A stretch of DNA of 64,000 nt from the NCBI GenBank assembly GCA_022820365.1, contig JAJEFO010000001.1, positions 27,851 through 91,850 of the forward strand. The letters run 5' to 3'. This stretch comes from Silicimonas sp. (GTDB taxonomy: Bacteria; Pseudomonadota; Alphaproteobacteria; Rhodobacterales; Rhodobacteraceae). A program made the translations under genes and the position numbers. The notes beneath the pieces are model-generated. The model searched no databases. It worked only from the letters and a program-made list of their open reading frames with translations, and was not told where the DNA came from. How positions within the stretch are numbered: the stretch's first letter is position 1; every line of letters begins with the position of its first letter. This document shows, in pieces, positions 44,116 to 62,984 of this stretch.

Positions 44116-44230
44116 GTGCCGAATCTCCCCACCGACACGCTCCGACTGCGCACTGTCTGCAGGTGTGGCGGACGGTGTATGCGCCGCGTGCCGATCTTGC
44201 GCGACCGGCCACAATTCTGCGCGTCGCGCG

Positions 44231-45666: not shown

Positions 45667-45757
45667 GGATCCCTCGTTTCTGCTATGGAAAGGGGAGGAA
45701 ACGAGAGCACCGCAATGGCGGCCCCGCCCCGGAATCCCCCGTCCGGTCACGTCCAGT

Positions 45758-45930: not shown

Positions 45931-46183
45931 ACTTGACGACACTTCGACGAAACTCGCAGCCAAGTCAAGTCGGTGTACGTGATCACCTTGACCTTGGAGA
46001 CCAGTTTGCCTGGACCGCCATCGTCTCAATGTTCCGAAGCTGTCAGGCATGTGCGATGAGCAATTCCCTCCGGCTTGCGGAGGCGCAGGTCATGCATCTC
46101 GAGCCATCCCTTCCCCGATACCGCGCAAGGCCGCATGCTCATGACGGGCGCGTGCCCGGCCAGATCCATCCTGTCAATGATCG

Positions 46184-47461
46184 TCACGCGCAGCCAAGAC
46201 CTTGGGACATCTGGGAGTAACTCGTGAGAGGAACCGCACACATCCGGTTCCAGTCAGCCTTGTCTATGACCGGCTGGTTTAGCAGCTTGATCATCTCGTC
46301 GAAACCGTGGAGTGCGTCACAGCCCGTTTCTTCCGGACCTGCCGCCTTGCGATGTTTCGGCCAAGCGCGTTCACGAGCGTACCGCCAAAAGTCGGTATCA
46401 TACCTGGAGCCACTGGAATAATGCCAACCCACGAACAGTCCGTAACTCAGCATGCGCTTGACGAGAAACCGATTGACCGTTGGCGCGTCACGTTCGAGGT
46501 GTTCGATCAAGCGGTTGAGCCGCATGTTGAGAACCATGCCAATCTGCAACTGAGCGGCCACGATCGCCGTTGCTTCGAGCGGCTCCATGAACGCAGCCGC
46601 ATTGCCGATGCGCGCGACCGCGCCATCGTAAATCTGCCGGTGGACGAAATTTGGAAATGGAATGACGGCGCGTTGCTCGAACTCCGAGACGCCATCGGTT
46701 TCAAGGAATTTGTCAAAGTCTGCTTCGACTTCGTCAATGTTCGACACATTCATATTGAAGATATACCCGTAAGAGGTATGAATCGTAAGTGGAATCACAA
46801 AAATCCATCCGTGCGGCCGCGCTACGGCGCGGGTATATGTATGCTCCGTAACAGGTCCATCCTTTGCTTTCCTGATGATTGCCGGGCAACGGCGGATGAC
46901 AGCCGTGTTGGTTGGGATGAAGGAAACGTCGATGTGCTGCTCGGGTTGGAGTTCTCTAGGAAACCCTCGTGCATCAAAGACCAGATCGTAGCGTTCGGAT
47001 TCCCTGCCCTCAAACCTTACTTCAGCCCCACCTTTTACCCGGTTGATCTCATTCACTTTCGCATCGATGTGGCGGGCGTGCGAGCATTCGTGTAGCAGAT
47101 CAGCCATCAAGTCCGCGGACAGATGGTATCCATACGACACCTGCTGCGGCGTGAAGTAGTGGGTGAAGTCTCGACCACGCCGTCCCCAGCCTTCGAATGC
47201 GACGCCGTACTTGCGGGTTCCCATCAGGCGCTGCTGCACGACTTGATGGGACACGTTCGTCAATTGCTGCAGTTCCTGGACCAGGCTCGGCCAGCTGCCT
47301 TCACCCACCCCAATAACCGGAATGCGCGAGTCGTAGATGTGGTGCAGTTCGAGATCGCTGTCGGGATGCATGCGCGAAACACTGGCGGCTGCCAGCGACC
47401 CGGCCGTTCCACGCCCAACGACCGCTACCCTTCTCAGGGTTTTGCTGCCCGGGTGTATCAT
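46184..47461 (-). CDS. Flavin-dependent tryptophan-halogenase-like enzyme of the RiPP cluster
   Basis: A 425-residue protein of the tryptophan halogenase family. FAD motif VAVVGRGTAGSLAA is at residues 12-25, GVGEGSWPSL at 51-60, the putative catalytic Lys is K84 in GTRKYGVAFEGW, and FMEPLEATAI at 291-300 contains the conserved acidic region. The family WxWxIP motif reads GWIFVIP at 218-224, so the second Trp is Phe. ATG 47461 is preferred since homology begins there. It is convergent-side neighbour of the precursor gene whose core ends in Trp, so that Trp is the obvious chlorination target. A separate flavin reductase must come from elsewhere. Confidence 0.87.
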   Translation of the reverse strand: MIHPGSKTLRRVAVVGRGTAGSLAAASVSRMHPDSDLELHHIYDSRIPVIGVGEGSWPSLVQELQQLTNVSHQVVQQRLMGTRKYGVAFEGWGRRGRDFTHYFTPQQVSYGYHLSADLMADLLHECSHARHIDAKVNEINRVKGGAEVRFEGRESERYDLVFDARGFPRELQPEQHIDVSFIPTNTAVIRRCPAIIRKAKDGPVTEHTYTRAVARPHGWIFVIPLTIHTSYGYIFNMNVSNIDEVEADFDKFLETDGVSEFEQRAVIPFPNFVHRQIYDGAVARIGNAAAFMEPLEATAIVAAQLQIGMVLNMRLNRLIEHLERDAPTVNRFLVKRMLSYGLFVGWHYSSGSRYDTDFWRYARERAWPKHRKAAGPEETGCDALHGFDEMIKLLNQPVIDKADWNRMCAVPLTSYSQMSQGLGCA

Positions 47462-48047
47462 CCCAAATGCCCTTCGCTGATCCCAGTTGGCCGCACTTGC
47501 CAGAAAGCTCAGTTCGCAAACTGCAAGCAGTTGCGCAAAATGGTTGCAGAGATGCAAGTGCGGGCGTTGGCACCACTGCGTGGTCAGATTAGACCACTTG
47601 ATTCACTCCGCAACGAGCGCAGTCTCCGCACCGGCCGCCCGAAAACGGTCCAATTTGCCGTGAAACTTGCATGGCACGAAGCCCAACACGCTAACGTCAC
47701 TCAACGCGATGATCCGCCTTGGATTTCGTCCTTTTTCCGCGCCGCAAAATGCATGCCCTAATCATTGGAACAAAGAAAGAATGAATGATCTTGTGCTGTC
47801 CTTTCCTGTCAAATGTTGCGCTCGTTGCTTGATCAAGATGCAGTTCTATCATTTGTCGAGATGCGGCGAAGCGACATCTTCATGCATCCCCGGGAACCCC
47901 CTTGATCCGGCCACAACGGTCATGGACCGCCTTACTTGTGGTGCAAGCCAGAGGTGCAGACCAGACTTGACGCAACTAGATTGCTGACTTAGGTGTCGTA
48001 CCGCACGCTTTGAAACCGTGCTGTGCGTACTGCAAAGGAGGTATGCC
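47462..48047. other. Divergent control region between halogenase and precursor
   Basis: About 585 bases with no recognised gene. A TTGACG hexamer at 47967-47972 is a possible -35 for the precursor, but no good -10 follows at 17 bases. Both the halogenase (minus) and the precursor (plus) promoters should lie here. Confidence 0.4.
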
Positions 48048-48299
48048 ATGAGAAGTGGCGACGAAATGCTGAAGCAAATTGTTGACAAGTCCGCCGTCGA
48101 TTCGGACTTCAGGCAACAGCTTCTTGCAGATCCGAAATCTACAATCAGCGGTGAATTGGGCATCACGATTCCGGACTCGATGAATATCGAGATTCACGAG
48201 AGCGATATGCAAACGGTGCATCTTGCTCTGCCTCCCGATCCAAACATCACCGAGGAGCAACTCGAAGCCATATCCGCAGGACTTTGCTGCTGCTGGTAG
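48048..48299 (+). CDS. RiPP precursor: NHLP-type leader with short Cys-Cys-Cys-Trp core
   Basis: An 83-residue peptide. Residues 1-78 are a nitrile-hydratase-like leader (NHLP): acidic/amphipathic DFRQQLLADPKSTISGELGI, then the beta-rich DSMNIEIHESDMQTVHLALP and ITEEQLEAISAG. Leaders of this type end in Gly-Gly or Ala-Gly and are cut by C39 peptidase-transporters. That would leave Leu-Cys-Cys-Cys-Trp (79-83) as the mature core. A perfect AAAGGAGG precedes the ATG at 48048; the in-frame upstream ATG at 48018 has none. It is transcribed alone, with an intrinsic terminator 70 bases downstream. Expected changes: Cys to thiazoline/thiazole by the YcaO enzyme and Trp chlorination. Confidence 0.92.
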   Translation: MRSGDEMLKQIVDKSAVDSDFRQQLLADPKSTISGELGITIPDSMNIEIHESDMQTVHLALPPDPNITEEQLEAISAGLCCCW

Positions 48300-48368
48300 A
48301 TTTGGCATTGAGTGACGTGGCACCATCGTGGGGAATGGTCCGCGTCTGACTGAGCACATGGCTTGAAC

Positions 48369-48402
48369 AGCCCCCGCCTGCGACTGCGGGCCGGGGCTTT
48401 TT
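48369..48402 (+). terminator. Intrinsic terminator after the precursor gene
   Basis: AGCCCC pairs with GGGGCT around a GC-rich inner part (CCGC/GCGG), followed by TTTTT. It ends the single-gene precursor transcript, a common way to make precursor peptide in excess over its modifying enzymes. Confidence 0.8.
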
Positions 48403-48640
48403 GTGTGACTGGATCTGATGTGGTTCAGTATCTGCTTACACTCGCCATCCATTGATCGCGAACAGGAAAGCTCAGCTTGATCATGGGGGTAGCCGTGCCG
48501 ACAAGCGCACTCCGGATTGCGACGAGAAGGCATTGTCCACACGTCGCCACTGACCGTCGGCAGGAGTACCGTACTTTCGTCGGACCTGACTGCGTGCCCG
48601 GAATTGCTCCTGCCTGCGCAGGACACCGTTACTGCCGGGA

Positions 48641-49759
48641 CTAGGTGGAGACCGCGCCTGAGAGGACCATGAACACGTAAGCCTTTGCCTGTCTGAGTTG
48701 ATCCTCGGAGATTACGACCTTGATGTGGTGAATTCCTCGCAGCAGTATGAACCGTCCCGATTTCCCGAAGAGCGTTGTCGGCTTCGATACCCAGTCGGCA
48801 AGCGCCGCAAGCTTCTCGGGCACGACGATGTCCTCATGGCTCAAGGCTTGCAGGAAGGGATCCCAGTCAGTCAGGCCGTCGAGCCAATAGCGAGAGTCCT
48901 TCGTGTATCTTTGCTTGACGATGAGCGTAAGACCCAGCGTCGAGCCGACGCCATCCTCCCTTATGTCGATGTTCACTCCGGTCCTGACGATGTTCACGCG
49001 CTCGCCAAAGCGGGCAATCACTGACTCTACGCGCGGAAATTGGCCCGGCCAGCCCAAGTCGCCAAGATAGGACCCGAGTTCCTGCCGCGACTTGAAACCC
49101 ATGATTGCCAGGCGGATTGACCGTGAGCGCGACGGGAAGATGCCGAACGAATCCATGCGCGTGTCTTCCGGCTGGGCCAGATAGGCACGTTCAACATGCT
49201 TCTTCTCAGCGTCACTCAACGTCCAGCCCACACAGGAAACAAGTGCGTCAACGACGTCAACGACATCATTGACCTGTCCGCATGCACCCAGGATCGGACG
49301 TTCGCCGGGCCTCAGGAACATTCCTGGGAACGAGTTGTCCCCTTCATTGGCCGAGCCGATGTCATATTCGAGCATTACCTTGCGACCGACAATTTGGCGC
49401 AGGGCCGAGCCTTCTTCATCCATCTGTCCGAACAATTTCGTGAGTGCCTGGGCAACCTCATCGCCTTCGTTGCTTCGTGCGCGCTGCTCGAAGACCTTCG
49501 CCGCACGGGTTCCGCTCGCGAGAGAGGCGCCAAAATCCGCCTCCGGACTGCGCGATTGCAGCGGAAGTTCAAATCCGAAAGGAAGGGCCCCCATCGTGAT
49601 CGGAAGAAGCTCCGCGCAATGGAGTATGCGTTCCCATTCCGCATCCCCAACGAGGCATCGCGAAACGCTGCTTCGAAAGTGCCCGAGCAATTCACCCATG
49701 GTGTTGCCCTCTTCGGCAAGCCTGTCCTGCGTCAGCATGACTGCTTCGTCAATGTTCAT
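48641..49759 (-). CDS. Conserved-looking protein of unknown function in the RiPP cluster
   Basis: A 372-residue soluble protein with no family I can name. It is acidic at the N-terminus, has ALPFGFELPLQSRSPEADFG near 58, FLRPGERPILGACGQVNDVVD near 147, DTRMDSFGIFPSRSRSIRL near 198, and a C-terminal part with YWLDGLTDWDPFLQALSHED then PEKLAALADWV. The ATG at 49759 has a good AGGTGG. It is the last gene of the minus-strand biosynthetic run, after the YcaO gene, and faces the precursor. It could be a tailoring enzyme, a leader-binding partner or an immunity protein; the sequence does not decide. Confidence 0.7.
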   Translation of the reverse strand: MNIDEAVMLTQDRLAEEGNTMGELLGHFRSSVSRCLVGDAEWERILHCAELLPITMGALPFGFELPLQSRSPEADFGASLASGTRAAKVFEQRARSNEGDEVAQALTKLFGQMDEEGSALRQIVGRKVMLEYDIGSANEGDNSFPGMFLRPGERPILGACGQVNDVVDVVDALVSCVGWTLSDAEKKHVERAYLAQPEDTRMDSFGIFPSRSRSIRLAIMGFKSRQELGSYLGDLGWPGQFPRVESVIARFGERVNIVRTGVNIDIREDGVGSTLGLTLIVKQRYTKDSRYWLDGLTDWDPFLQALSHEDIVVPEKLAALADWVSKPTTLFGKSGRFILLRGIHHIKVVISEDQLRQAKAYVFMVLSGAVST

Positions 49760-50266
49760 CCGCCCACCTCGCAGGAACCTGTGTGCTTGTATGTCCGGGA
49801 ATCAAGGGAATCAAACTTGTCCACAGCTGCTTCCGGCTCGTGGAAAGTGTGGATGTCTTCCGATTGAACGGCGGTATTCCTTCTGGAAGTCGCGCGGGAA
49901 CGCCGACCCTTTTCGGGGTGCCGGAGGCCGGCTCTTGCCTTTCCGGCGCTGCCACTTGATCAAGCAACCAACGCAAACTTTCACGGACAATTCCTCCTCA
50001 TATTTTTTTCTTTCTTACTTTGTTCCGATGAATCGGGCACGCATTTCGTGACGCGCGGAAGAGACGAAATCCAAGTCTGATCATCGCGTTGATTGACGTT
50101 AACGTGTCAGGCGTCGTGCCGTGCACGTTTCACGGCAACTTGGGCCGTTTTCGGGCGGCGGGTGCGGAAGTTGCGCTCGTTGCGGATTAAATCAAGTGAC
50201 ATTCTGACCTGCATTCGGGTTCTCCATATTTTCCGAAAGCCCTCGCCTTTCAGGACAGGGAAGATC
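49760..50266. other. Intergenic stretch, no second precursor seen
   Basis: About 500 bases between the unknown gene and the YcaO gene. Frames on both strands were read for an NHLP-like leader or a Cys-rich core and none was found. It probably contains a separate promoter for the 372-residue protein. Confidence 0.45.
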
Positions 50267-52621
50267 TCAGGCAATCACGGGTGCGGGGTTCAGATCGGCT
50301 TCTGCTAGTCGGTGCGAGCGCCGGCCCAGGCTCACGGGCACATCATACAGCCGGCCAGGCGCGAACCGCTCCCAGAAATGGCGCATGCCCGGCACGATGA
50401 CACGTGCCACCGGCATGCCGATGTCAGGCCGAGTCTGGTCCAGAACAAGGAATTCCATGCCCTTGGCCTCGACGATGGCACGGCACGCATCCACGTCATC
50501 ACGCGCATCGGTCGTATCTGCCGTCGGATAATCTTCAGCCACGCGGAGCGGTTCTCCTGCCGCCGGCACCAGCCAGTCGCACTCGGCGAGACGGGCGGTC
50601 TTCCACCACCACAGGGCCAGCGGGTCATCGATCATGGGCTTGTCATCGGTCCGATCGGGCCGCGGCAGCCAGCTCAGACACTGGTTCAGTTCGCAAACCG
50701 CGCGCAGAGCGGCGACGCGCGGATCGGCGTGGGCACCGGCACCGTAGATGATGTCCTCACTCTGTGCATTCGTCCTGCGTGAGAGCGCGACAAATGCGGG
50801 AATCTTGATGTCCGACGTAATGTCTAGAACCCAGATATCCCTGTCGCGGCAAACATAATATGCCTCGGCCGCTGCGAGGTATTCGTCATCGAAACTGGCA
50901 AGGTCAACCCTTGGAACCTGCAGCCGGTTGTACCACCAGATGGCGAACGCATCGCGCTCTGCCAATTCGTAGAATCCCTGCAGGATGGCCTCTTCAAGAG
51001 TATTGCCCGCTGCACAGCCGTTCGAATCGGCAATCAGGTCCATGGGGCCCCGCTGTTCTGGCGCCATGCTGTAGAGCATCGAGGTCGGCAAATAGCGATG
51101 CCGCTGCTGCGTGAGCGACCAAACCGGCGTCCAGTCGATCTCGGCCTCGGGGTCGAGACGGGGCGGCACGACATTGTAGGGATGTCCCTTGGCGTTGATG
51201 GTCTTGGCGTCATCAAGCTGCCTGTCGCTGAACAGTTGCGCATCATTTGGGTGAATTGCCTCCCCGTCCCCGAGAAACTCGACGAGCCGCCTCCGGATCC
51301 GGATCTCGTCTCCCTGGCAGGCGCCCGAATAGCGCTCGATTGCCTCGCAGAGGGCGCTGACCCTGGATTGCTCTCGGGTGCTTCCCTTGCCTGCGCTCTT
51401 GCTGCGCAGACTTCGTCGGAGCGAACTCAAGGTTCGGCTTCTCATGCCGAGATTGCTTCCGGCCCAGTCGACATGCAGCCAGGAATCCGCTTCATCAGTG
51501 GTACGTGACACCCAGGTCACGACTCCACTTACCGGGCTCACCAGGTGGCGATATCTCGCAAGCGTGACTTCCGGAGCCACAGTGCGGGCGCCGCCGCTGC
51601 CGCGATGCGCCTTGGGACTATTCTGCAGACACAAGGAAACCGGCGGTCGATCCGGACGATACAGCGCTTCGTCGCCACAGGCGAGGCACTGCGGGCGGCG
51701 CATGACCCGATGCTGCGAACTTGCAAACGTGCCGAAATTCATCGCGATTGCGTTCTCATGAAGCGGCGCAGACTCTTCGAGCACCAGCCATTTGACGATT
51801 TCCGCCGCGATCAAGCCGTATAGTGCCTCCAGCACGGCAGTTTGAGCCGCGAATGGCTTGAAGGCCGCCCTTTCGCCGGCGACATTGCGCAGGAAATTGT
51901 GAACTTCTTCATGGCTGCGAAGGCGGTAGGCCAGGCAATCCCAGCAAGGCCCCTGCCCGTCGGCGCGAAATACGGGGCCGAACAACGCCTCCATGCCGTG
52001 CGGCCTCATCAGCATCCACGGTGTGCTGGATTCCAGCTGGCGCCGATTCACCTCTCCGAGACTCGATGCAAGGAAGTCGTCGCACACAATGGCTATGAGT
52101 CTCGGATTGGAGTCCTTCACGCTGGCGCCCTGCTCATTCAAGTGCCGGGTCAGTCGCCCGTCGTCACCTTCAATCGCGACACTTGATTCCGAAAGCCGGC
52201 GTTCGACCCATCTCGGTGAAGCGCCAAGGGACGACCAGTAGGCAGCCCGGGGTCGCTCCATGCCATGATCGGCAGAAACGACATAGCCTTTGGAGGAAAG
52301 CGAACCAATTGCGGCGAGAACTTCGGTGGCGGCATGAGAGCCATCGAGGCGTGCAACAATGTCGTCCTTCGCGTGCCGACCGTCGAGCAAGGGCAGCAGG
52401 CTGCAATACAGCTCGCCGTGCAGGAGTGTATTGAACCGCTCCGAAACCAAGAGCGCCTGCGCTTCTCCGATCGTGTGCGATTGCATGTGCGGCGCAAGCG
52501 TGGGGAGCTTGACCAGACCCTGGTCCTCCGGCGTGACTCGCGTAAGCAACCCCTTCCGGGGGATTGTGGACTTCTGCGACGACATCTCGGGTTTCCGTGC
52601 CGGTCGAACAGGTACTTTCAC
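50267..52621 (-). CDS. Fused E1-like/YcaO cyclodehydratase (TOMM C-D fusion)
   Basis: A 784-residue fusion. Residues about 30-340 form the E1-like/ocin-ThiF leader-binding part, with zinc Cys pairs CWDC (226/229) and CLAC (312/315). Residues about 350-784 form the YcaO domain, with ATP-binding Glu in SALCEAIERYSG (422-433) and AERDAFAIWWYNR near 575. Such fusions phosphorylate the peptide backbone and cyclise Cys, Ser or Thr to azolines. The C-terminus reads LNPAPVIA, a weakened form of the PxPxP tail seen in many azoline-forming YcaO proteins. The GTG start overlaps the preceding stop (GTGA). Its substrate should be the three Cys of the precursor. No separate flavin dehydrogenase (SagB type) is seen. 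Confidence 0.92.
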   Translation of the reverse strand: MKVPVRPARKPEMSSQKSTIPRKGLLTRVTPEDQGLVKLPTLAPHMQSHTIGEAQALLVSERFNTLLHGELYCSLLPLLDGRHAKDDIVARLDGSHAATEVLAAIGSLSSKGYVVSADHGMERPRAAYWSSLGASPRWVERRLSESSVAIEGDDGRLTRHLNEQGASVKDSNPRLIAIVCDDFLASSLGEVNRRQLESSTPWMLMRPHGMEALFGPVFRADGQGPCWDCLAYRLRSHEEVHNFLRNVAGERAAFKPFAAQTAVLEALYGLIAAEIVKWLVLEESAPLHENAIAMNFGTFASSQHRVMRRPQCLACGDEALYRPDRPPVSLCLQNSPKAHRGSGGARTVAPEVTLARYRHLVSPVSGVVTWVSRTTDEADSWLHVDWAGSNLGMRSRTLSSLRRSLRSKSAGKGSTREQSRVSALCEAIERYSGACQGDEIRIRRRLVEFLGDGEAIHPNDAQLFSDRQLDDAKTINAKGHPYNVVPPRLDPEAEIDWTPVWSLTQQRHRYLPTSMLYSMAPEQRGPMDLIADSNGCAAGNTLEEAILQGFYELAERDAFAIWWYNRLQVPRVDLASFDDEYLAAAEAYYVCRDRDIWVLDITSDIKIPAFVALSRRTNAQSEDIIYGAGAHADPRVAALRAVCELNQCLSWLPRPDRTDDKPMIDDPLALWWWKTARLAECDWLVPAAGEPLRVAEDYPTADTTDARDDVDACRAIVEAKGMEFLVLDQTRPDIGMPVARVIVPGMRHFWERFAPGRLYDVPVSLGRRSHRLAEADLNPAPVIA

Positions 52622-55014
52622 GTGCGCGACAACAACCTATCGATTTCTTTGGCGGAATGGCGTGCGGTTTCGGCAATCGCCGTGTTCAGCGCAGCGAAAT
52701 CTTCCTGACCGCATGCGCTCGCAACGAGGGATCTGACGTTCTTTCCGGCCCCGGCCACGTCAAAGCCGTCCTCTCCGACGAGCCGCACCACGCCCTGCAG
52801 AGACCGCCACATGCCCGCGGCCTGTTCCAGGTGCTCGGCGCCGGCGGCACCAAACACTGCTGCGGCGGTCGGCGCTGAATCGTCAAGGTCAATGCCGGGC
52901 TGCGTTAATTGGAGGACTCGAGCAGCCCTCTCTACATCTTCCAGCCCGCCACGTACGCCGACGAATGTCGACACATCAGCTTCGGCTGGACCTTCTGGCG
53001 GTTCGCGCAGGCCCGAGATGAGAGCATCGTCGTCGCCACAATCGGACAGGATTGCGCTTCGTGCTTCGTCGAACCGACGGCCAATCTCCCAATCACCGCA
53101 CTCGAATATGCATCGTGCCCTAGTCAGGGCCGGGATCTTTCCCTGGTCCCGAGTCCCGACGTGCCTTTCAAGCCGGGACAATGGAAGTTCAAGTATGGCT
53201 TTCGACCTGCGCGGAATCGGAGAGAACAACAGGTTGCCCTGCGCCAAATCGGTCAAGGCCCCACGGAACTGCCGGCAAAGACGCTCATGGTCGTCGGTGC
53301 GGCTGCCGTCATGTACAAACAGCACTTTGAGAGCGACGCCAGGGTGAGCTTCCCTGCTTGCGAGATCGCCCAGGAATATCGCCGCAACCCCGCCGTTGCT
53401 CATCGGCCCGCACCAGTCGACAAAATCCTCAACGACGGCGGCCAGCACGGTCGAAACCGATGCCTCGGCAAGGTTCGAAAGCGCAACCGCGGCTTCCGCC
53501 GGCGACAAGTTCCCGCGCACGACGTGCATCCCAATCTGAAACGCCTTGTCGTTCGACCAGTTCCGCACGATCTCGGCGCTTTCCCTTGCATCAGCCGTCG
53601 GCAATTCAGCTATCAGGCCCTTCATTTCCTGGACGTCCATTTCATGGGTCCAGTAGACACGCGACAAACCGCGTCGCGCCAGCTCTTCGGACTCCGCGTC
53701 CGGTCCGAATCCCTTGGGCAGGTCGAGATCCGTGAACTCCCGGTCCTGTAGGTTATCGAGAAGTTCCGCGTTGCGTTCGATCCACTTGGCGAGTCGCGGC
53801 GAGGCACCGAAGATCTCGACGATCGCGTCGAATGCATCCGGCCGCGCTGCCGCGACCGGACTGTCGTAAGCGCTCCAGTCATCGATTTCCGGATAGAAGT
53901 GGTTGCGCCACTGATCCACCAACGGATCCATCTTCTCAAACCAGCGCTTCGGCCGCAGCACGATGTTCATCATGTCGGCGTAAGTTCCGGGCAACTCCGG
54001 AGATTCATCGGAATCGTGAACCTGAAGCAGCGGGTAGTGCCGAGATGCCGTCGCGTGATGATCCGCATGACGCTGCATGTTAAAGAACATCCAGTTGCTG
54101 AATTTCCAGTCGGCACTCCAGGAATGGCGCGGCATCACCTTTTCCCAGCGGCCGTTCGGCAGACGGACACGGCGCAGGCCATAATGCTGAAAGTAGTTGC
54201 TGATCTTCATTGAAAAGACGCAGCTCAACCCAAGGAACATGAAGACAAGAAGCGCCCAGATTCCGCCCATCCAGAATGCCAGACCATACCAGAACGCGAC
54301 ACCAAGACCGTAACGCCAGAACGGATTGCTGCGATGCCACACGGGAAGCCTGCGTCGCGCCAGCCTTTCGCTGACAACCCTCCAGGAGTTCGTAAGGTTG
54401 CACACGACCTCCTTGGGAAAGTACTGCCAGAAACTCTCGCCTTTCGGAGCGGAACCCGCGTCGTGCGGTGTGCCCACCAAGGCATGATGGATGTAAACGT
54501 GCTCCGTGGCATATTGAGGATACGAGGCCGATGCGAGCAGGAACTCACCGATCCGACGTTCCCAGGTCGTTCGCCGATGAATCAGCTCGTGACCGACGAC
54601 AAACACTGCCTGACCTTCCATCGTCAGGATGATTACCAGCAGCGCCGCCTCCCAAACCGCAAATTGATTCACTGCAAGGATCTGCCACATGCCGAAGATG
54701 AGCGTCGGCGGCCACAGGTATGCCCAGGTCCAGACCGGCAAATTATGCCAGATCAGCCGGCGCTCAGGTGTCTTCACCGGGTCCATGTTGCGGCCATCGA
54801 CACCCAACGCCTTATCAAGCGGCCCTGCTACGCTCATGAAGAGTAGCGGAGGCAACAGCCACCAGCCGCCATAGATTGCGGCAAGCACAATCAGAGGGAA
54901 TATGCCCAAAGGCAGATAGTGAGGAATTGCGTTTAGAATTGACGGTTCGATACGCGGTCTCATGCCAGCGCTCTTCGATCCCGAGTCACCACCTACGAGT
55001 GCATCCTGCGGCAT
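52618..55014 (-). CDS. AlkB-type di-iron monooxygenase fused to a degenerate GlnE-like nucleotidyltransferase region
   Basis: A 798-residue protein. The N-terminal part (about 1-370) is an integral-membrane AlkB/desaturase-type oxygenase with all His boxes: GHELIHRR (141-148), EHVYIHHALVG (171-181), NYFQHYGLRR (273-282) and NMQRHADHHA (312-321), plus several membrane helices. The C-terminal part (about 400-798) resembles the glutamine synthetase adenylyltransferase fold: ASPRLAKWIERNAELLDNL, then VALSNLAEASVSTVLAAV, GGVAAIFLGDLASREAHP and TRARCIFECGDWEIG. The family's acidic GSDLDL site is absent (HPGVALKVLF), so nucleotidyl transfer is unlikely. ATG 55014 with GGGGA upstream is preferred. 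It overlaps the YcaO gene. Inference: it hydroxylates or dehydrogenates the peptide at the membrane. Confidence 0.85.
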   Translation of the reverse strand: MPQDALVGGDSGSKSAGMRPRIEPSILNAIPHYLPLGIFPLIVLAAIYGGWWLLPPLLFMSVAGPLDKALGVDGRNMDPVKTPERRLIWHNLPVWTWAYLWPPTLIFGMWQILAVNQFAVWEAALLVIILTMEGQAVFVVGHELIHRRTTWERRIGEFLLASASYPQYATEHVYIHHALVGTPHDAGSAPKGESFWQYFPKEVVCNLTNSWRVVSERLARRRLPVWHRSNPFWRYGLGVAFWYGLAFWMGGIWALLVFMFLGLSCVFSMKISNYFQHYGLRRVRLPNGRWEKVMPRHSWSADWKFSNWMFFNMQRHADHHATASRHYPLLQVHDSDESPELPGTYADMMNIVLRPKRWFEKMDPLVDQWRNHFYPEIDDWSAYDSPVAAARPDAFDAIVEIFGASPRLAKWIERNAELLDNLQDREFTDLDLPKGFGPDAESEELARRGLSRVYWTHEMDVQEMKGLIAELPTADARESAEIVRNWSNDKAFQIGMHVVRGNLSPAEAAVALSNLAEASVSTVLAAVVEDFVDWCGPMSNGGVAAIFLGDLASREAHPGVALKVLFVHDGSRTDDHERLCRQFRGALTDLAQGNLLFSPIPRRSKAILELPLSRLERHVGTRDQGKIPALTRARCIFECGDWEIGRRFDEARSAILSDCGDDDALISGLREPPEGPAEADVSTFVGVRGGLEDVERAARVLQLTQPGIDLDDSAPTAAAVFGAAGAEHLEQAAGMWRSLQGVVRLVGEDGFDVAGAGKNVRSLVASACGQEDFAALNTAIAETARHSAKEIDRLLSRT

Positions 55015-55090
55015 GGCAGATCCCCAGCGAACAGTTGTTTCACAACAGGCTGGCAATTCATACCATCCGACATGCCGACCTGCAAATCGC

Positions 55091-56392
55091 TCAGCGTTCC
55101 ACGGCTTCCACGAGACCCTCCAGTGCCTCAATGCAAAACGCGGTAGTCACAGCTTCGGAACCATGCCCAATTTGCCCGAAAACGCCCCATTTCAGCGTCT
55201 GGTCGCCGAAGGCGAGAATTTCCGGCCAACTGCCGTCGTCATGTTGCGAGCCAACGAGTTCTTCGATCAGGTGCCCTGCGTCGATCCTGTCGAGGCTTCC
55301 AATCTTGTGGAGCGCCGATATTGCCTGGGCAGTCTGCAGGACGTTGCCAAAGTCTCCGTTCTCGTCGCGCAAGCCCAGGATTCGATCCGCAAGTACGGGA
55401 CGCAGCCGCTCCAAGGTAGGCCTCGCGAGATTCATGGCGCGAGCAACCGCATAGTAAATCGACACCGTGTCAGGATACCACTTGGACGAACCCGCAAGAC
55501 GTCCTTCGACGATCAGGGCCTCCAGCCAATTCCGCGCACTCCGGGTTGCAGGATGGTCGCCGAGAAAGGCTATGACATTCGCGTTGACCACGGGATCGGC
55601 TTCGATGCGGAATCTCGACACGACATCAGGCTCGCCGTCCGCAAGAACCCAGGTCATGAAGCGGCCCTCTTCGTCTCGATTTGCCAGAAACTGCGGAACA
55701 TTCCGTCCCAGTGCAATCCAGGGGTGATCCCTGATGACAAGCGAACAGAGCGAGGTGCTGTCGAGATCCTGCGGAAGATGGCGATAATAGCGCCAAAAAC
55801 CTGGGTATTCGATCGTGTCAGAAAGATATGCCCGGGTGGCCGCACACATCTCCGTCGCCAACGCGTCGCCCGAATTCTCCAGCGCAAGCACGCAGAGAGC
55901 GGAAACAAACGGAGGTCTTTCGAAATGTCTCGGAACGTCCGGGTCGCCCACATTGAACCGGATGCAGCGCCAGGCGCCGTTGTCGTCGATCGTGCCCTTC
56001 AGGAATACAAGCCCCTTGCGGATGCTCTCCCTGCCCGCACCTGCCAATGTCTCTGCACCTGCACCCTTCTTGAGGTCACGCGCATTTCCGGATGCGGCTG
56101 GACGCATGGGTGGCGCAGGATCGTGCATTGTCTTGCGCAGAAACTCCAGCGACGTCGCACCATCCTTCGCCGCCTCCCTCTCGGCCTTGTTGAACCTGCT
56201 GCGCGGCGGAAGCACCAGATGCGTCCTGGAATAAGTCTCTTCGTGCACGTGAATCTCTTGGTCATCGGCCAACATGACACCGAGTTCCTCTTCGATCGCT
56301 TTCTTGGGATTCGCGAGCAGACGTTCACGAAAATGGCTGTCCTCGTCCGCTCTGGCCGTGAGGAAACCTTCCGCATCGATAGGTTGCTTCAT
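55091..56392 (-). CDS. NHLP-leader-like domain fused to a terpene-cyclase/prenyltransferase-like alpha/alpha barrel
   Basis: A 433-residue protein. Residues 1-75 look like an NHLP leader (FLTARADEDSHFRERLLANP, KKAIEEELGVML, EIHVHEETYSRTHLVLPP), similar in layout to the precursor leader but without a Gly-Gly/Ala-Gly core end. A charged linker follows. Residues about 110-433 have repeats typical of squalene-cyclase-like barrels: ENGDFGNVLQTAQAISALH, SQHDDGSWPEILAFGDQ and EAVTTAFCIEALEGLVEA. No DxDD protonation motif is evident. GGAG precedes the ATG at 56392. It may be a tailoring enzyme recruited by leader mimicry, or a scaffold. The NHLP start makes export or maturation by the adjacent C39 transporter conceivable. 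Confidence 0.8.
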   Translation of the reverse strand: MKQPIDAEGFLTARADEDSHFRERLLANPKKAIEEELGVMLADDQEIHVHEETYSRTHLVLPPRSRFNKAEREAAKDGATSLEFLRKTMHDPAPPMRPAASGNARDLKKGAGAETLAGAGRESIRKGLVFLKGTIDDNGAWRCIRFNVGDPDVPRHFERPPFVSALCVLALENSGDALATEMCAATRAYLSDTIEYPGFWRYYRHLPQDLDSTSLCSLVIRDHPWIALGRNVPQFLANRDEEGRFMTWVLADGEPDVVSRFRIEADPVVNANVIAFLGDHPATRSARNWLEALIVEGRLAGSSKWYPDTVSIYYAVARAMNLARPTLERLRPVLADRILGLRDENGDFGNVLQTAQAISALHKIGSLDRIDAGHLIEELVGSQHDDGSWPEILAFGDQTLKWGVFGQIGHGSEAVTTAFCIEALEGLVEAVER

Positions 56393-56774
56393 CGAAATTC
56401 TCCGTCATCGTGAGTCAGGCCATCAGCACGACATTCAGCAGATCGACCGATTTGAACGTACCTGGTGCAGGGAGCAAATTTCTCACTTCTCCCTGACTTG
56501 GCAACCTTGGTCGGAAACCTGTCCGAGCACCTGCCCGGTCGACTGACGGATCGTCCTTGATGCAACGAACCCGAACCGTGTCATTCCTCCACCCGAAACG
56601 CGATTGCCTGCGATGCGAACCGCTTTCCGATCTCCGCAAGCTCGGGAGAACATTCCGTAGCCTGTCCTGCAACCCTTGCAAGTCGACCACTCCTTCCTGA
56701 ATGGCAACGTCATTGCAATCCTGATTGCTCACGGAACAACGGCAAGACCCCGGAGAACTGCCGGCAAGTTCCGA
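56393..56774. other. Intergenic stretch between transporter and biosynthetic genes
   Basis: About 380 bases. A 105-codon minus frame (56415-56732, GTG start) shows no family pattern and was not called. A promoter for the cyclase-like gene and its downstream genes may be here. Confidence 0.4.
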
Positions 56775-59714
56775 TCAAGCTATCTGCCGTTTGACCAGTT
56801 CCCTGAATACACCATCAACTTCCATGAGTTCGCTGAACGAGCCCCTTTGCACAACCTTCCCGGCCTGCAAAACGTAGATGCAGTCAGCCTGTTCCAACGT
56901 GGACAGCCGATGCGCGATTACCAGCCGCGTTGAAGTCAGCGCGGTAAGGTTTTGCATCACATTGGCCTGGCTTTCGTTGTCCAGCCAGTTGGTTGCCTCG
57001 TCAAACAGCATGACTCGCGGGCTTTCGATCACCGAGCGGGCAATCGTGACGCGCTGTCTTTCGCCGCCCGACAGACCGGAACTGCTGGTACCGACCATGG
57101 TCATCAAGCCCATGGGCATGCCCCTGATTTCGTCTTCCACTTCCGCGGTCCGGATCGCCTTCCACACGTCTTCGACCGCGACTCCCTCGCGGTGACTGAC
57201 CAGATTGTCCCAAAGATCATTTGGATAAAGCCCAACCGACTGCGGCACTGCTCCTACCTGCCGACGCAACTGCTTCAGGTTGAGATGCCTCAAGTCACGG
57301 CCGTCATAATACACGGCACCGGCAACTGGCTGATCGATTCCGAGCGCGAGACGGAACAGCGTGCTCTTTCCGGAACCTGACTCGCCGGCAATCGCGACAA
57401 ATTCGCCCGCGCGAGCATGAATCGAGACATCATCAAGAATCAACGGTCCATCGGCATCGTAGCGGAAGGAAATGCGGTCGAATAAAATGTCGCCGCCCAG
57501 AAATTCTACCGGGTCCCCTTCGATTTCGGTCTTTGGAACTGCCGCAAGCAGTGGCCGCATCTGTTCGAAAGCCGGCAGTGTGGCAGCAATGGCACCCAGG
57601 GACTCGCCAAGCCGGGCAATCGCTGACTGGAATGTGATGAACACGAGATAGACAACGAGAAACTCGCTCACCCCGACGCTTCCGTCACCCACCGCCACCG
57701 CAAGTAGAAGAACGCCACCGGCCAGGAAGGGCAGCGCGGCACCAAATGCATGCGAATGTCCCTCCAGTGAATTCAACTCGAGCTCTGCTCGTTTCTGTTC
57801 GCGGTAGTCTCGCGCCAAGATTGCGAACGCCGATCCCTCCGCGGCTTCCACACGCAACTTGGCGATGCCGCCTACGATCTGGAACAGCCTCCCGGCGACA
57901 CTTCGCGACGCGCGGATCGCATGCCCGTACGGTGAGATCTGGCGCAGCCCGATAGCCACGGTGCAAAGCAGCGAAGCCAGGCTGAAGACGAGGGCAATCA
58001 CCCCGAGCGTGACGTTGTAGAAGAAAATCAGGCCCAGGACGGGAAGCAGGAAGACAACCGAAAGCATGCCGTCGGCGATGACTTCCTGAACACCGTCGCG
58101 CAAGTTCTGGAATGTCATTCCCGACGTCGCCAGATCGCCGGCCGGGCGACCGTGCAGGATCTTTGGCGAAAGGCGCATGAGGCGATCCCAGAAGGCAGCC
58201 TCGAGACGGGCTGCCGAACGTCCTTCGAAACGCATCATCGCAGTGCTTTGGAACAGATGCAGCAAGGCGCCGAGCAGGCCGAATCCCGCAAGCGCTATGG
58301 CCACAGCATGGAGAATTGCCGCATTTTCGCCCGTCGCGGCCTGAGTTGCGACAAATCCGAGCGCGACGGCCGGCAGCAGCTTGATCAGCCCGCCGGGAAG
58401 CCCGGCAATCACGAGCCGCGCCAGGTCCGTGCCAGATCCATGGAGAGCGATTGACAGCAGATCTGAAGGCTGCACGTCCTCCGGCGGCAAGGGACGATAG
58501 AACATCCAGGCTTCTTCCTTCAGCGCATCGGCACGATCCGCGGTGATCCTGACCCCACGCTTGCTGGTCGGATCAATCTGCCGGTAATTCCCGAACAAGC
58601 CAGGCAGCAACGCCATCGGTTTGCCGTCCTCCGCGCGGAATGCCAGCATCGCGTTGCTGTCGCCGCGCCACCACCTGTCCTCCTGCCTCAACCGCACGCG
58701 GCGTGCGCGCACCCCTGATGCATCAAGAATGTCGACGAGTCCGACGGGAGATGCTGACGGATCCCGACGCGCCGGAAACTTGAACTCGATGCCCTCGCGA
58801 CGACCAATGATCTGCAGCGCATCCGCGAGTGCCGTGCCCTCGGCGCTGGAATCCCTGTCGATGGGCAGGTCATAGATATTGAAGAGTCTCTGCCGCGCGG
58901 CGGTTTCAGCCGTATGCCGGCTCTTTGTAAGCGCGCGCTCAAGATTCGCGTCATCGACCACAGCCAGTCTGCGGTTCACGCGCTCCAGACCGAAGGCAAC
59001 CTCATGGAATGTGGCAAGCGCCGGCAACAGCGTGCCGTGACGCGCCAGTTCCTCCGATGATTGCCCCGACAGCGTTGCCGCGTCGAACATGGTGAACCAG
59101 CTCGTGCGCGTCAGCGGAATGACCACTTCGTCTGTCATGCTTGCATCGTCGATTTCCGCCCGGTCGACCATGTCCATGTAAACGCCCGCACCTTGCGGTG
59201 GTGCGGATACCCAAACCACGCCGCGCCGCACCGACAGCGTGCCCTTGGAATAGGTCTGCCTCTGCCCGGGCTCGGCAAGGTCAGTAGGCCTCGAAATACG
59301 GCCCGCAAAGCGTGAAAGCGTGTCAGTAATGGCCGTCAGCCACATGTCGATCTGACCAGCCAGTTCCGACGGGTGCACCTCGGACAGCGACGATGCCGGC
59401 AGACGCCGCAGGATGGTGCCCGGCGATCCCTTGGCAACCAGGCTGAGCGTGCTGCCCTTGCCGTCGCGTGGTTCATCAGGCGCGACGCCGGGAAGCAACC
59501 AGCCCGCCTCGCGGGACAGAAGATGTTGCGGTGCGGCTGTCTCCACACCGTCCTCGACCTCGACCAGGAACAGGTTGACTGCGCCCTCGTCAATGAACCA
59601 GAAGCTGTCCGGATCGTCGAGTTTCACCGGAAGGTTGCCGGCACAGGGCACAGACGTACCCGAACGAGCAGCAAGCTCGGAAATCGCAACGTGTTTTTGC
59701 CTGCTGTCCTGCAT
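56775..59714 (-). CDS. NHLM-type ABC transporter (permease-ATPase) with large N-terminal domain
   Basis: A 979-residue protein. Residues 1-330 form a cyclic-nucleotide-binding-like sensory part (AGNLPVKLDDPDSFWFIDEG; RLFNIYDLPIDRDS). About 330-700 is a DUF/permease region with six helices, and the C-terminal ATPase has Walker A AIAGESGSGKSTLF, LSGGERQRVTIARS, Walker B VMLFDEAT and a switch His in VIAHRLS. This matches the second ABC protein of NHLM bacteriocin export systems (no C39 domain). Its ATG overlaps the stop of the peptidase transporter (TGATG), so the two are coupled and probably form a heterodimer. Confidence 0.92.
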   Translation of the reverse strand: MQDSRQKHVAISELAARSGTSVPCAGNLPVKLDDPDSFWFIDEGAVNLFLVEVEDGVETAAPQHLLSREAGWLLPGVAPDEPRDGKGSTLSLVAKGSPGTILRRLPASSLSEVHPSELAGQIDMWLTAITDTLSRFAGRISRPTDLAEPGQRQTYSKGTLSVRRGVVWVSAPPQGAGVYMDMVDRAEIDDASMTDEVVIPLTRTSWFTMFDAATLSGQSSEELARHGTLLPALATFHEVAFGLERVNRRLAVVDDANLERALTKSRHTAETAARQRLFNIYDLPIDRDSSAEGTALADALQIIGRREGIEFKFPARRDPSASPVGLVDILDASGVRARRVRLRQEDRWWRGDSNAMLAFRAEDGKPMALLPGLFGNYRQIDPTSKRGVRITADRADALKEEAWMFYRPLPPEDVQPSDLLSIALHGSGTDLARLVIAGLPGGLIKLLPAVALGFVATQAATGENAAILHAVAIALAGFGLLGALLHLFQSTAMMRFEGRSAARLEAAFWDRLMRLSPKILHGRPAGDLATSGMTFQNLRDGVQEVIADGMLSVVFLLPVLGLIFFYNVTLGVIALVFSLASLLCTVAIGLRQISPYGHAIRASRSVAGRLFQIVGGIAKLRVEAAEGSAFAILARDYREQKRAELELNSLEGHSHAFGAALPFLAGGVLLLAVAVGDGSVGVSEFLVVYLVFITFQSAIARLGESLGAIAATLPAFEQMRPLLAAVPKTEIEGDPVEFLGGDILFDRISFRYDADGPLILDDVSIHARAGEFVAIAGESGSGKSTLFRLALGIDQPVAGAVYYDGRDLRHLNLKQLRRQVGAVPQSVGLYPNDLWDNLVSHREGVAVEDVWKAIRTAEVEDEIRGMPMGLMTMVGTSSSGLSGGERQRVTIARSVIESPRVMLFDEATNWLDNESQANVMQNLTALTSTRLVIAHRLSTLEQADCIYVLQAGKVVQRGSFSELMEVDGVFRELVKRQIA

Positions 59715-61924
59715 CAACTCGACTTTGCAAGTTTGTAGTACGTTCCATCCCGATCCGCGATCAGTTGGTCATGCGCGCCTCGCTGCACTTCGGCGCCCCT
59801 ATCCAGAACAACAATTTCGTCACAGTCGCGCACTGTGCTCAACCGATGGGCCACGATCAGGCAGGTGACGCCGCGTCGGCGCAATGCTTCATCGACAAAT
59901 TCCTCCGTTGCAGCGTCAAGCGCACTGGTTGCCTCGTCGAGCAGGAGCATGGTCGGGTTGCCCACCAGCGCACGGGCGATTTCCAGGCGCTGACACTGTC
60001 CGCCGCTGAAATTCGCTCCGGCTTCTTCGACGCGAGTCGCGTAGCCGTCAGGCCTGAGCAGAATCTCGTCGTGGATCCGGGCGTCTCGAGCAGCTGCGAA
60101 TATGGCTTCGTCCGGAACGGCCGGGTTCCACAAGGTGATGTTGTCGTGCACGGAGCCCGAAAAGAGCACCACCTCCTGATCCACCATAGATATGGACTGC
60201 CGAAGCACTTCCTCGGGAATCTCTTCCCTGGGATGGCCGTCGAAAAGGATGTCGCCCGACCACGGCTGATAGACACCTGCTATCAGGCGCGTCAGGGTCG
60301 ACTTGCCGGATCCGCTGGGACCGACCACGGCAACGCGCTGCCCCGGTTCAATGGTGAGGCTGAAATCCTTGATCAGAGGTGGTCGGCTCCTGCTGAAGCC
60401 GAACGTGACGTCTCGCAGTTCGAGCCGCCCCGCAAGCTGGAGCCGGCCCTTGAACGTCGGAATCGTTGCCGAGTCCGGGTTTCGGCGCGTAAAGGTCGGG
60501 GCTTCCGCGGTCTTGCGGACATCATCGAGTCGCTGCAGATCGGTTTCAAGCGCATGACGCTTATTGGCGAACTCCATAAAGCGGCCGAAGGGTGCCAGAA
60601 ACATCTCGGCCAAGATGTAGAAACCGACCAGCGTCCCCAGAGTCAGGTCTCCCGCCAAAACCATACTTCCCCCGAAGCCCAGAATCGCGGCACCGCGGAA
60701 TCCCGCGATGAGAACCGGCAGCGCGGAATTGATCGCCCCGAGTTCAGCATAGCGCTGTCGCGCCTGCAGTTCGCGTGCCTGCTGTCCGGTCCAGCGCGAA
60801 AAGAGCCTGTCATCCGATCCCGTCAGGCGCAGGTTGTCCGCGTGACTCAGCATCTGCATGCCGTAGCCGATCAGCAGTCCCTGTTCGCGCCTCATCGCCT
60901 GGATTTTGACGACCCGGAGCCCGTTAAAGACATGAGCCAGAACTCCGTGCAACAGGGCCAACAACACGACAATCAGCGCGAGACGGAAGTCAAGGGCCAG
61001 CATTGCTACAAGCAGCACTGCACTCATCGCCATTTCAACGACGCGCGACAAGACCTGATCCGTCAGGTTCTTGGCGACTCGGTCAATGGAAGAGACTCGG
61101 TCAGTCAAGTCGCCTGCCAACCTGTGATCAAAGAACTCGACCGGAAGGCGAAGCAGCCGCGTCAGGCCTCGATCGTAGCCCACGATCGAAACCCGGGTTG
61201 CGAGCCGGCTGAGGAATCTGTGCTTGAGCAAGGTCAGAATGTACACAAGCACGCCGCCGCCAAGCATCGCCGCCACAATCCCGCGCCACGGTCCATGGTT
61301 CTCCAGCACGTCGTCCACGAAGACGCTGAGCGATGCGGGAATGATGAGCGTTAAAAGAGTCAACAAGAATCCGCATGCAATCACCCCGGCAACCGTACTC
61401 CATGTTCCGGCAAGGAGTGCGTGCAATCGCCTGAACAGGTCTGGACGCTCACCGCCAGGGTTGAAATCTGGGCCGCACTTGAATTGAAGAGCAATGCCGC
61501 TGTAGCCCTTGGCAAACTCTTCGGCGGACAGTCTGCGTCGCCCCGTGGACGGATCATTCAGGTGAAAGCTGTTGCCGTCGCATCCTTCGAGGACGACGAA
61601 ATGGCTGAATTGCCAAAACAGGATCAGGGGAAACTGCAGCTTCCCCAGTTGATCCGCGCGTACGTTCAATCCCTTGCATTCAAGACCGTAGGATCTGGCG
61701 GCGCGCATGATGCTCGCGGCGCTGCTGCCGTCTCGGCTCACCTCGCATCTTTCGCGCAATTCAGTAAGCGGCACCCATTTGCCGAAGTAACCAAGTATGC
61801 TGCCGAGGCAGGCAGCACCACATTCCGACGCGTGCATCTGCAACAGAATTGGCGTGCGTGCTCTTTGGCGTGCGGGAACGGATTCCGCCTTGCCCATAGC
61901 CCTGCTTGAGGTGCGCAGCCGCAT
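59714..61924 (-). CDS. NHLM-type C39 peptidase-ABC transporter
   Basis: A 736-residue bacteriocin exporter. C39 protease domain at residues 25-150, with Cys in LLQMHASECGAACLGSIL, His in QFSHFVVLEG and Asp in LNDPSTGRRR. Six-helix permease follows to about 470, then the ATPase with VAVVGPSGSGKSTLTRL, FSGGQCQRLEIARAL, LLLDEATSALD and VAHRLST. It should cleave the precursor after Ala78-Gly79-type leader end (ISAG) and export the modified core. It lies 8 bases after the HlyD-like gene. Confidence 0.95.
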   Translation of the reverse strand: MRLRTSSRAMGKAESVPARQRARTPILLQMHASECGAACLGSILGYFGKWVPLTELRERCEVSRDGSSAASIMRAARSYGLECKGLNVRADQLGKLQFPLILFWQFSHFVVLEGCDGNSFHLNDPSTGRRRLSAEEFAKGYSGIALQFKCGPDFNPGGERPDLFRRLHALLAGTWSTVAGVIACGFLLTLLTLIIPASLSVFVDDVLENHGPWRGIVAAMLGGGVLVYILTLLKHRFLSRLATRVSIVGYDRGLTRLLRLPVEFFDHRLAGDLTDRVSSIDRVAKNLTDQVLSRVVEMAMSAVLLVAMLALDFRLALIVVLLALLHGVLAHVFNGLRVVKIQAMRREQGLLIGYGMQMLSHADNLRLTGSDDRLFSRWTGQQARELQARQRYAELGAINSALPVLIAGFRGAAILGFGGSMVLAGDLTLGTLVGFYILAEMFLAPFGRFMEFANKRHALETDLQRLDDVRKTAEAPTFTRRNPDSATIPTFKGRLQLAGRLELRDVTFGFSRSRPPLIKDFSLTIEPGQRVAVVGPSGSGKSTLTRLIAGVYQPWSGDILFDGHPREEIPEEVLRQSISMVDQEVVLFSGSVHDNITLWNPAVPDEAIFAAARDARIHDEILLRPDGYATRVEEAGANFSGGQCQRLEIARALVGNPTMLLLDEATSALDAATEEFVDEALRRRGVTCLIVAHRLSTVRDCDEIVVLDRGAEVQRGAHDQLIADRDGTYYKLAKSS

Positions 61925-61931
61925 CTCTTGC

Positions 61932-62477
61932 CTACCTCATGCGCAGCAGTGCGATCGGCGAATGCCTGCCGACATCAATTACGATTTCGCATTTCGTGCC
62001 CGCATGAATCTCGACATCCGGGGCTTTGTCGAGGGCGACCTTCACGTGGCGCACGGAAATCGGTGCCGACAACTCAATCTCCGCCCATTGCCCGGACAAA
62101 GGCGCTGCGGAAATATCCCGAATCTCTCCCCCGATCGTTGCCACTTCGCCTTCCGCGCCAACCAGCCTCACAACCGCCGGCAATCCAGCCCTGACTTGAG
62201 GTTCGAAGTCCTTTCTGATCCAGGCAAGTGCATGAATCGAATGGCCTTCCGTCTGCTGGCTTTCGCCGGACTCGACGATAACAGCGTCTACCGTGAGATT
62301 GCGGGCCACATCACCAAAGAAGAGCCATGCAGCAAGAAGCATGGACAAGACGCCAATCACGGCGACGAGCAGACGTTCGTGCGGTGTGGAAACTGTCAGC
62401 AGCCGATCGAGTTGTTCGCGATCTTCCTTTGCTGCGGCAACAGAATCCTGAAATGAGCCGAATGGGTTATTGAACAC
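61932..62477 (-). CDS. Short HlyD-like secretion adaptor of the NHLM system
   Basis: A 181-residue protein with an N-terminal charged part, one membrane helix (LLVAVIGVLSMLLAAWLFF, about residues 36-54) and a beta-barrel-like periplasmic part (AGLPAVVRLVGAEGEVATIGGEI; APISVRHVKVALDKAP). NHLM HlyD-type adaptors are usually much longer, with a lipoyl domain and coiled coil; those parts are absent here. The GTG start lacks an ideally spaced ribosome-binding site (GGAGG is 12 bases upstream). It is the first gene of the export operon. Confidence 0.75.
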   Translation of the reverse strand: MFNNPFGSFQDSVAAAKEDREQLDRLLTVSTPHERLLVAVIGVLSMLLAAWLFFGDVARNLTVDAVIVESGESQQTEGHSIHALAWIRKDFEPQVRAGLPAVVRLVGAEGEVATIGGEIRDISAAPLSGQWAEIELSAPISVRHVKVALDKAPDVEIHAGTKCEIVIDVGRHSPIALLRMR

Positions 62478-62984
62478 GACCGTACCCAGCCTCCTCCAAG
62501 AATTCGGGCCACCACAAATATCTCATGATCCGCGTATAGACGTAAGGGGCTTGTGCGCTTCCAATCAAGATCGGTCAAGTCCTCAACATGCCACGGGAAG
62601 ACTCTCCTTTCCCGCTTGAGCTTTCGGGGACATGTCGAAGCCTGCCGGAATTACAGCTTTGTTTCAGTCAGATGCCCGGTGACTGAGGAACGACCGAATT
62701 CCGGCCTGCCGAACGCTTCCGCAATGCCCAGCGCCGGAAGCGCACACTTAAGCGGCTGCAAGAGGCTGCAGGCGAGATCGTGCAAGAAACTCTTTGCGAT
62801 CACATGCCATATGCGCCAAACTGCATGAAGGCGCCACGAAGATGGCAGCAAAGAGGCAACGATGGGGACTTATATCGTTGAGTCACATTCGGAATGATGT
62901 TTACATTTTGTTCTCTCTCGGCGATGGTGCGTGAAATGGACGTCGGAGCGTCCACTCCCAAACGCTCGCGCAGGAGCGACCGCA
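62478..62984. other. Intergenic stretch between RiPP export operon and TnpB
   Basis: About 500 bases. No gene was recognised. It should carry the promoter of the export operon and the left end of the IS200/IS605-type element; no terminal hairpin could be fixed by eye. Confidence 0.4.

Follow-up and report, generated by a model that had tools for sequence, protein, structure and literature searches.

What is made by the gene cluster at positions 46184–62477 of the stretch of Silicimonas sp. DNA analysed here (64,000 nucleotides of contig JAJEFO010000001.1; hereafter the window)? The cluster consists of nine genes for a ribosomally synthesised and post-translationally modified peptide (RiPP), with the precursor gene on the plus strand and the other eight on the minus strand. 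We consider it probable that this is an srp-type proteusin cluster directing the synthesis of a brominated thiazoline pentapeptide (Leu-Cys3-Trp), with an ABBA-fold enzyme to prenylate it and a leader-bearing protein with a class II cyclase fold to cyclise the prenyl chain. The genes are as follows.

46184..47557 (open reading frame; likely start ATG at 47461), minus strand: SrpI-like flavin-dependent peptide halogenase (PF04820)
48048..48299, plus strand: SrpE-like NHLP (proteusin) precursor, 83 amino acids; leader ending in ...AISAG, core LCCCW at 48282–48296
48641..49759, minus strand: ABBA-fold prenyltransferase (predicted fold), 372 amino acids
50267..52621, minus strand: fused thiazole/oxazole-modified microcin (TOMM) cyclodehydratase, leader-binding half plus YcaO, SrpC-like (TIGR03882, TIGR03604, PF02624)
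52618..55131 (likely start about 55014), minus strand: AlkB-type membrane di-iron protein with a weakly GlnE-like half (PF00487)
55091..56392, minus strand: NHLP-cyclase, 433 amino acids, NHLP leader plus class II terpene-cyclase-like domain
56775..59717, minus strand: NHLM ABC transporter subunit 2 (TIGR03797, 648 bits, cut-off 709)
59714..61924, minus strand: NHLM ABC transporter subunit 1 with C39 leader peptidase (PF03412, E 6.7e-35; PF00005; PF00664)
61932..62477, minus strand: short HlyD-like protein, 181 amino acids (TIGR03794, E 3.9e-7 over 52 positions)

The initial annotation had correctly read a RiPP cluster here, and its LCCCW NHLP precursor beside a cyclodehydratase, a halogenase and an AlkB-type protein was confirmed by PF04820, PF02624 with TIGR03882, PF00487 and homologs. 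However, the system is not undescribed, as had been proposed; an LCCCW core with a YcaO enzyme and a halogenase has been published as srp, from marine-sponge microbiomes (PMC10858898, PMC10286304; statements on published systems, here and below, refer to the available portions of the cited papers). In those reports, SrpC, a YcaO enzyme, makes three thiazolines in the LCCCW core of SrpE, and SrpI, whose action depends on the leader, installs bromine but not chlorine at C6 of the C-terminal Trp. A 2022 survey found srp-like clusters in 2/3 sponge species (PMC9426513), and a title in a reference list calls srp clusters "highly distributed" in sponge microbiomes; in the srp literature searched, no isolated end product was named. 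The window cluster is of this published kind, as matched by core, gene families and published descriptions, with an NHLP precursor bearing the LCCCW core, a YcaO cyclodehydratase and a flavin-dependent peptide halogenase common to both. Beyond published srp, we read the cluster as encoding, next to the AlkB-type enzyme, a prenyltransferase and a terpene cyclase fused to an NHLP leader, two genes within the annotated region that the first reading had missed. Within the literature searched, neither prenylation nor terpene cyclisation was mentioned in the srp-related papers or the sponge survey.

The protein encoded at 48641–49759 is likely an ABBA-fold prenyltransferase, a claim that comes from structure prediction and covers the fold and likely function rather than a named sequence family. 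Positions R216, D265, K316 and H345 were kept in 25/25 sequences (alignment A3, 25 sequences). Scanning named genomes gave 171 confirmed loci, 80 of which were kept, and the genomes of 47 of these were searched whole; the prenyltransferase was present in 47/47. It was convergent with the precursor gene and within 2 kb on its 3′ side in 61 of the 73 loci with enough sequence. Among the kin of the window genome, it was found in that genome itself and in 7/7 congeners (as paralogs only in G004), and in 0/33 other relatives.

The NHLP-cyclase carries an NHLP leader in residues 1–79 and a class II terpene-cyclase-like domain in about residues 110–433, with the motif DLDST at 209–213, which we take to be an acidic class II cyclase motif of the DxDD/DxDTT type. 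Its predicted alpha/alpha toroid was most like terpene cyclases, and the acid motif DxD[ST][ST], found in 55/55 sequences (22 of them in alignment A4; a further alignment, A5, had 16 sequences), aligned with that of drimenol synthase. The class II fold and the acid Asp are common to MstE and drimenol synthases (PDB 6sbc, 9mhs, 9m7f), whereas the NHLP leader occurs only in the NHLP-cyclase, and identity is about 17–21% over the aligned part. The cyclase domain was likewise present in 47/47 genomes. If its predicted function holds, we know of no earlier tailoring enzyme that carries a fused NHLP leader. Csm2 hits of the same protein (PADLOC, E about 0.03) were weak and were taken as chance.

SrpC and SrpI alone explain the published modifications, and no srp isoprenoid appeared in the srp papers that were word-searched; the product could accordingly be the brominated tri-thiazoline pentapeptide only, with the ABBA-fold and cyclase-fold proteins degenerate or serving as scaffolds. 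We regard this as quite unlikely, because both folds are kept in every genome searched whole, the acid motif and the four prenyltransferase positions are retained throughout, and the ratio of nonsynonymous to synonymous substitution rates (dN/dS) is close to 0.2 for both genes in the single pair compared; scaffolding would also leave unexplained the other terpene/alkene-acting enzymes of paralogous clusters. In that pair, the window genome and its congener G005, dN/dS was 0.022 for the precursor, 0.110 for the AlkB-type protein, 0.133 and 0.145 for ABC subunits 1 and 2, 0.134 for the halogenase, 0.163 for YcaO, 0.190 for the NHLP-cyclase, 0.198 for the prenyltransferase and 0.229 for HlyD. The precursor was the slowest-evolving gene of the cluster, which would fit a hub read by many partners.

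The main argument for an installed prenyl chain is that terpene/alkene-acting enzymes appear to interchange around a constant prenyltransferase. Of 14 stretches fetched for prenyltransferase paralogs, 12 contained an NHLP precursor with a non-LCCCW end, namely WCCCGQ/WCCCGN, LCCCL, GGECIC/VCQC/LCACM, IAPTKDSY/IAPTDDSY, IGDINTW, ...NSLNQNS (four loci) or the GYY type, the core limits being putative; no NHLP precursor other than LCCCW was found in the stretches L183 and L193, the former of which has a halogenase. Congener loci also gave the ends RCCC (twice) and WAPTSSSY. In L190, the prenyltransferase and an unfused cyclase homolog lie 24 bp apart, and two further enzymes are encoded in the RCCC stretch L046, an MPAB/Lcp-type oxygenase and a methyltransferase of the CMAS type. 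Neither the halogenase nor the cyclase domain had a match in L046/L047. A halogenase of a second type accompanied the W-containing cores WAPTSSSY (L050), IGDINTW (L191) and VSDIDSW (L045), and was not seen within the limited flanks of IAPTKDSY (L184) or IAPTDDSY (L190). Over these five loci with limited flanks, the pairing of W core and halogenase looks clearer in the paralogous clusters. We see about an even chance that this widely shared sponge-symbiont RiPP cluster is a meroterpenoid factory, in which a bromotryptophan tri-thiazoline pentapeptide is first prenylated and then terpene-cyclised by an enzyme bearing a full proteusin leader of its own, with the cyclase domain where a core would be, and that it belongs to an unrecognised family of prenylated proteusins composed of an NHLP precursor, an ABBA prenyltransferase, interchangeable terpene-acting enzymes and a hydrophobe/lipid-type exporter.

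Three of the paralogous loci gave further observations. L045 lies in the window genome itself (contig C42:1-6855), where a second NHLP precursor ending in GG-VSDIDSW has its own, different tryptophan halogenase. L050 (G004:C87) combines the WAPTSSSY NHLP precursor and Trp halogenase with a distant prenyltransferase, a methyltransferase, NHLM transporters and a 443-amino-acid protein without a Pfam match, and no YcaO match was seen in that stretch. L186 (G075:C127) has NHLM transporters and a halogenase of the srp type next to another NHLP precursor, ending in ...FANAWNSLNQNS, and to a distant prenyltransferase; this contig is not the one with the LCCCW precursor neighbourhood of G075.

In the proposed pathway, the YcaO enzyme would turn the three Cys into thiazolines and the halogenase would brominate Trp at C6, as shown for SrpC and SrpI, respectively. 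The prenyltransferase would add a C10–C20 prenyl group, most likely on the indole of the C-terminal Trp, and the NHLP-cyclase would protonate and cyclise this chain via the Asp of DLDST, its leader perhaps docking the enzyme to leader-reading partners. The AlkB-type protein may oxidise the terpene or the thiazolines. The C39 ABC transporter would cut after Ala-Gly, the cleavage site foreseen by the initial annotation and one that fits such a transporter, and export the peptide. Its further passage outward would fall to a hydrophobe/lipid-type envelope module, whose genes lie close to the precursor gene in many relatives and, in the window genome, on a separate contig. If this is true, mass searches for a bare brominated pentapeptide target the wrong mass and polarity. 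The product would be testable in E. coli with the system that has served to express SrpE and SrpC (PMC10286304).

A different order or acceptor is possible, if rather doubtful; the cyclase may act first on a free prenyl diphosphate, the bicyclic group then being transferred, or the prenyl may sit on a Cys sulfur or a peptide terminus. Drimenyl diphosphate synthases cyclise free prenyl diphosphate, and the closest structures to the cyclase include enzymes acting on farnesyl diphosphate. In addition, prenyltransferase paralogs lie beside Cys-rich, Trp-less cores (RCCC, LCCCL, VCQC, LCACM), and by analogy with SrpI, bromination would fall on the only Trp in LCCCW.

Several points weigh against our preferred reading, that of a peptide both brominated and prenylated with its chain cyclised in place. 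Bromine and prenyl would both have to sit on the one Trp of LCCCW, unless the prenyl is placed elsewhere, and paralogs of the prenyltransferase accompany the Trp-less core IAPTDDSY as well as RCCC and LCCCL; the acceptor, chain length and reaction order given above are putative. The prenyltransferase had no Pfam or NCBIfam match, and a sequence-profile search of PDB gave nothing meaningful (best E 0.48), its identity being revealed by the fold alone. For the NHLP-cyclase, the match of the domain to Pfam SQHop_cyclase_C reached only E 0.059, the mean predicted local distance difference test score (pLDDT) of the structure model was 72.6, the last Thr of the motif was replaced by Ser in 5/55 sequences, and the unfused homolog in L190 has EVDST. 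The pairing of LCCCW with the halogenase is not strict; at E<=1e-60, the halogenase was found in 45/47 LCCCW genomes and not in G071 (L108, record titled chromosome) or G072 (L109), with parts only in G053, G054, G067 and G078. Judging from these genomes, bromination would not be universal (2/47 without an srp-type halogenase, four more with parts). Finally, the envelope-module genes of the window genome lie on another contig (C68), and no export-module gene was found within the stretch examined in 35/80 loci.

Comparable chemistry is known from other RiPP systems. The mpp cluster (MppE/MppI/MppC/MppD/MppG) resembles the window cluster in grouping a brominase, a prenyltransferase, a terpene synthase and an oxygenase around one long-leader precursor (PMC11791876, PMC12715784). 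It differs in being a lanthipeptide cluster with a Nif11 leader, a lanthionine ring, no YcaO and two Trp, one brominated (Trp80) and the other (Trp82) geranylated by MppC in a leader-dependent manner; MppC and MppD are likened to the window prenyltransferase and cyclase by their published description. If our reading is true, a known brominated RiPP would turn out to be a hybrid of brominated peptide and terpenoid, a counterpart of the mpp lanthipeptide. NctPC and ChrPC are bifunctional RiPP enzymes that prenylate Trp and then cyclise the chain, and NctPC joins an ABBA-fold prenyltransferase to an MstE-like cyclase, like the window pair (2026 review, PMC13290415). Each is a single fused protein, whereas the window has two genes, with the cyclase fused to a proteusin leader and accompanied by YcaO, a brominase and an NHLP precursor. 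PalQ, of the PalQ/PalX system, acts on an NHLP precursor, prenylating its C-terminal Trp, an arrangement also proposed for the window cluster, but belongs to the isoprene synthase superfamily rather than the ABBA fold and lies in a three-gene cluster with a histidine kinase (PMC10853753). Within the literature searched, three proposals are new, namely an srp product that is prenylated and cyclised, a cyclase fused to a leader, and a wider family of prenylated proteusins.

The precursor ends in ...EEQLEAISAGLCCCW, in which AISAG is followed by LCCCW. Its homologs, 701 in number, carry PF02979 and, where named, are annotated as NHLP leader peptide family RiPP precursors. The best 120 of the 701 were 83–98% identical and all ended in LCCCW (24 of these 120 in alignment A2), so a chance origin of this core was rejected; no ortholog lacking the C-terminal Cys and Trp was met among them, and the paralogous clusters described above do have other cores. 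Record titles of the 80 loci named Alpha-, Gamma- and Deltaproteobacteria, Gemmatimonadetes, Acidobacteria, Nitrospinae, Chloroflexi and Binatia. Nearly all LCCCW loci come from metagenome-assembled genomes; Spongia is named in one record title (L121), and the other genomes presumably also come from sponges.

The halogenase matched PF04820 with E 2.4e-47, and the motifs GxGxxG, W[IV]FVIP and GTRKYG were all present in 33/33 complete relatives, GTRKYG appearing to hold the equivalent of SrpI Lys84. Trp halogenation, as first annotated, is to be expected, whereas the chlorine isotope pattern suggested as its test is the wrong one, since SrpI brominates without chlorinating. Alignment A1 held six of seven halogenases, one congener having been dropped for a stop. 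Ten matches and congener G002 have an in-frame stop; that these genes are broken was not accepted, since the A1 profile extends past the likely start in the upstream direction and, G078 excepted, the frames stay open for about 425 amino acids or more. The YcaO protein matched PF02624 with E 8.2e-96, its leader-binding half being TIGR03882, and it was the only YcaO found by a PF02624 search of the whole window genome. Heterocycles on Cys, as originally predicted, are expected; oxidised azoles found no support, as no nitroreductase/SagB-type (FMN-dependent azoline dehydrogenase) family occurred among the cluster proteins scanned, one elsewhere in the genome being possible.

The initial annotation had also suggested that the three adjacent Cys of the core might serve metal binding. 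A halogenated poly-azole metallophore from an undescribed system is very improbable; nothing was found in support of a metal-binding role, the system is already described as srp, the cluster proteins scanned include no azoline oxidase family and no recognised metal-uptake gene, and the neighbouring cobalamin genes belong to a separate, riboswitch-led stretch.

The AlkB/FA_desaturase domain (PF00487, E 1.4e-24) of the 52618–55131 protein was present in 47/47 genomes, in five as partial matches. Among 29 complete relatives, the His motifs HExIH, EHxxxHH, NxxQHYG-type and QRHxDHH were found in 20, 28, 29 and 25, respectively. Terpene hydroxylation and thiazoline oxidation may both fit, given that the cluster proteins scanned showed no family of azoline dehydrogenases. 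The C-terminal half is weakly GlnE-like, with GlnE below cut-off and the NCBIfam GlnE models far below it; the fusion is kept in relatives across phyla.

Two NHLM ABC transporters bear out part of the export set annotated initially, and the word "complete" was generous, since the HlyD homolog, at 181 amino acids, covers 52 of the 421 positions in the NHLM HlyD model and stays below cut-off; this short form recurs in 26 relatives. In G005, genes for DUF1302, DUF1329, YCF48-like and MMPL RND proteins sit between the halogenase and the precursor. The four families and their order are identical to those of AmeABCD of Castellaniella defragrans, an exporter of apolar monoterpenes (DUF1302, DUF1329/LolA-like, YCF48-like, MMPL/HAE3 RND; PMC6394551), whereas the substrate of the G005-type module would be the peptide product. 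Export-module reading frames of the 80 loci, grouped by single linkage with the family assigned from one or two members each, fell into MMPL RND (23), LolA-like (26), beta-barrel-like (20; DUF1302 match just below cut-off) and MacB/FtsX permeases (7), with at least one such gene in 45/80. In congener G004, the RND/DUF module survives at C1, flanked by halogenase remnants and, across from these, by a degraded precursor that reads LCCRW and has no stop behind it; such a joint loss would fit joint function.

The precursor and prenyltransferase genes are enclosed by an imperfect inverted repeat.

47595..47785: left arm, imperfect, 191 nt, 84%
50008..50198: right arm, imperfect, 191 nt, 84%

Part of this repeat was found in G007; of the remaining congener loci in the comparison, none showed it. 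As the RND/DUF module is on another contig in both the window genome and G007, a rearrangement is suggested. Beyond the HlyD gene, an IS605 OrfB-type transposase match (PF01385, E 6e-12) lies at 62931–63998 (plus strand), its frame still open at the window end. On the other side, a cobalamin riboswitch (45746–45944, minus strand; Rfam RF00174, 100.7 bits) heads a neighbouring cobalamin stretch with cobW (44231–45283) and a CobN-type gene (40690–44421), and likely marks the edge of the RiPP cluster.

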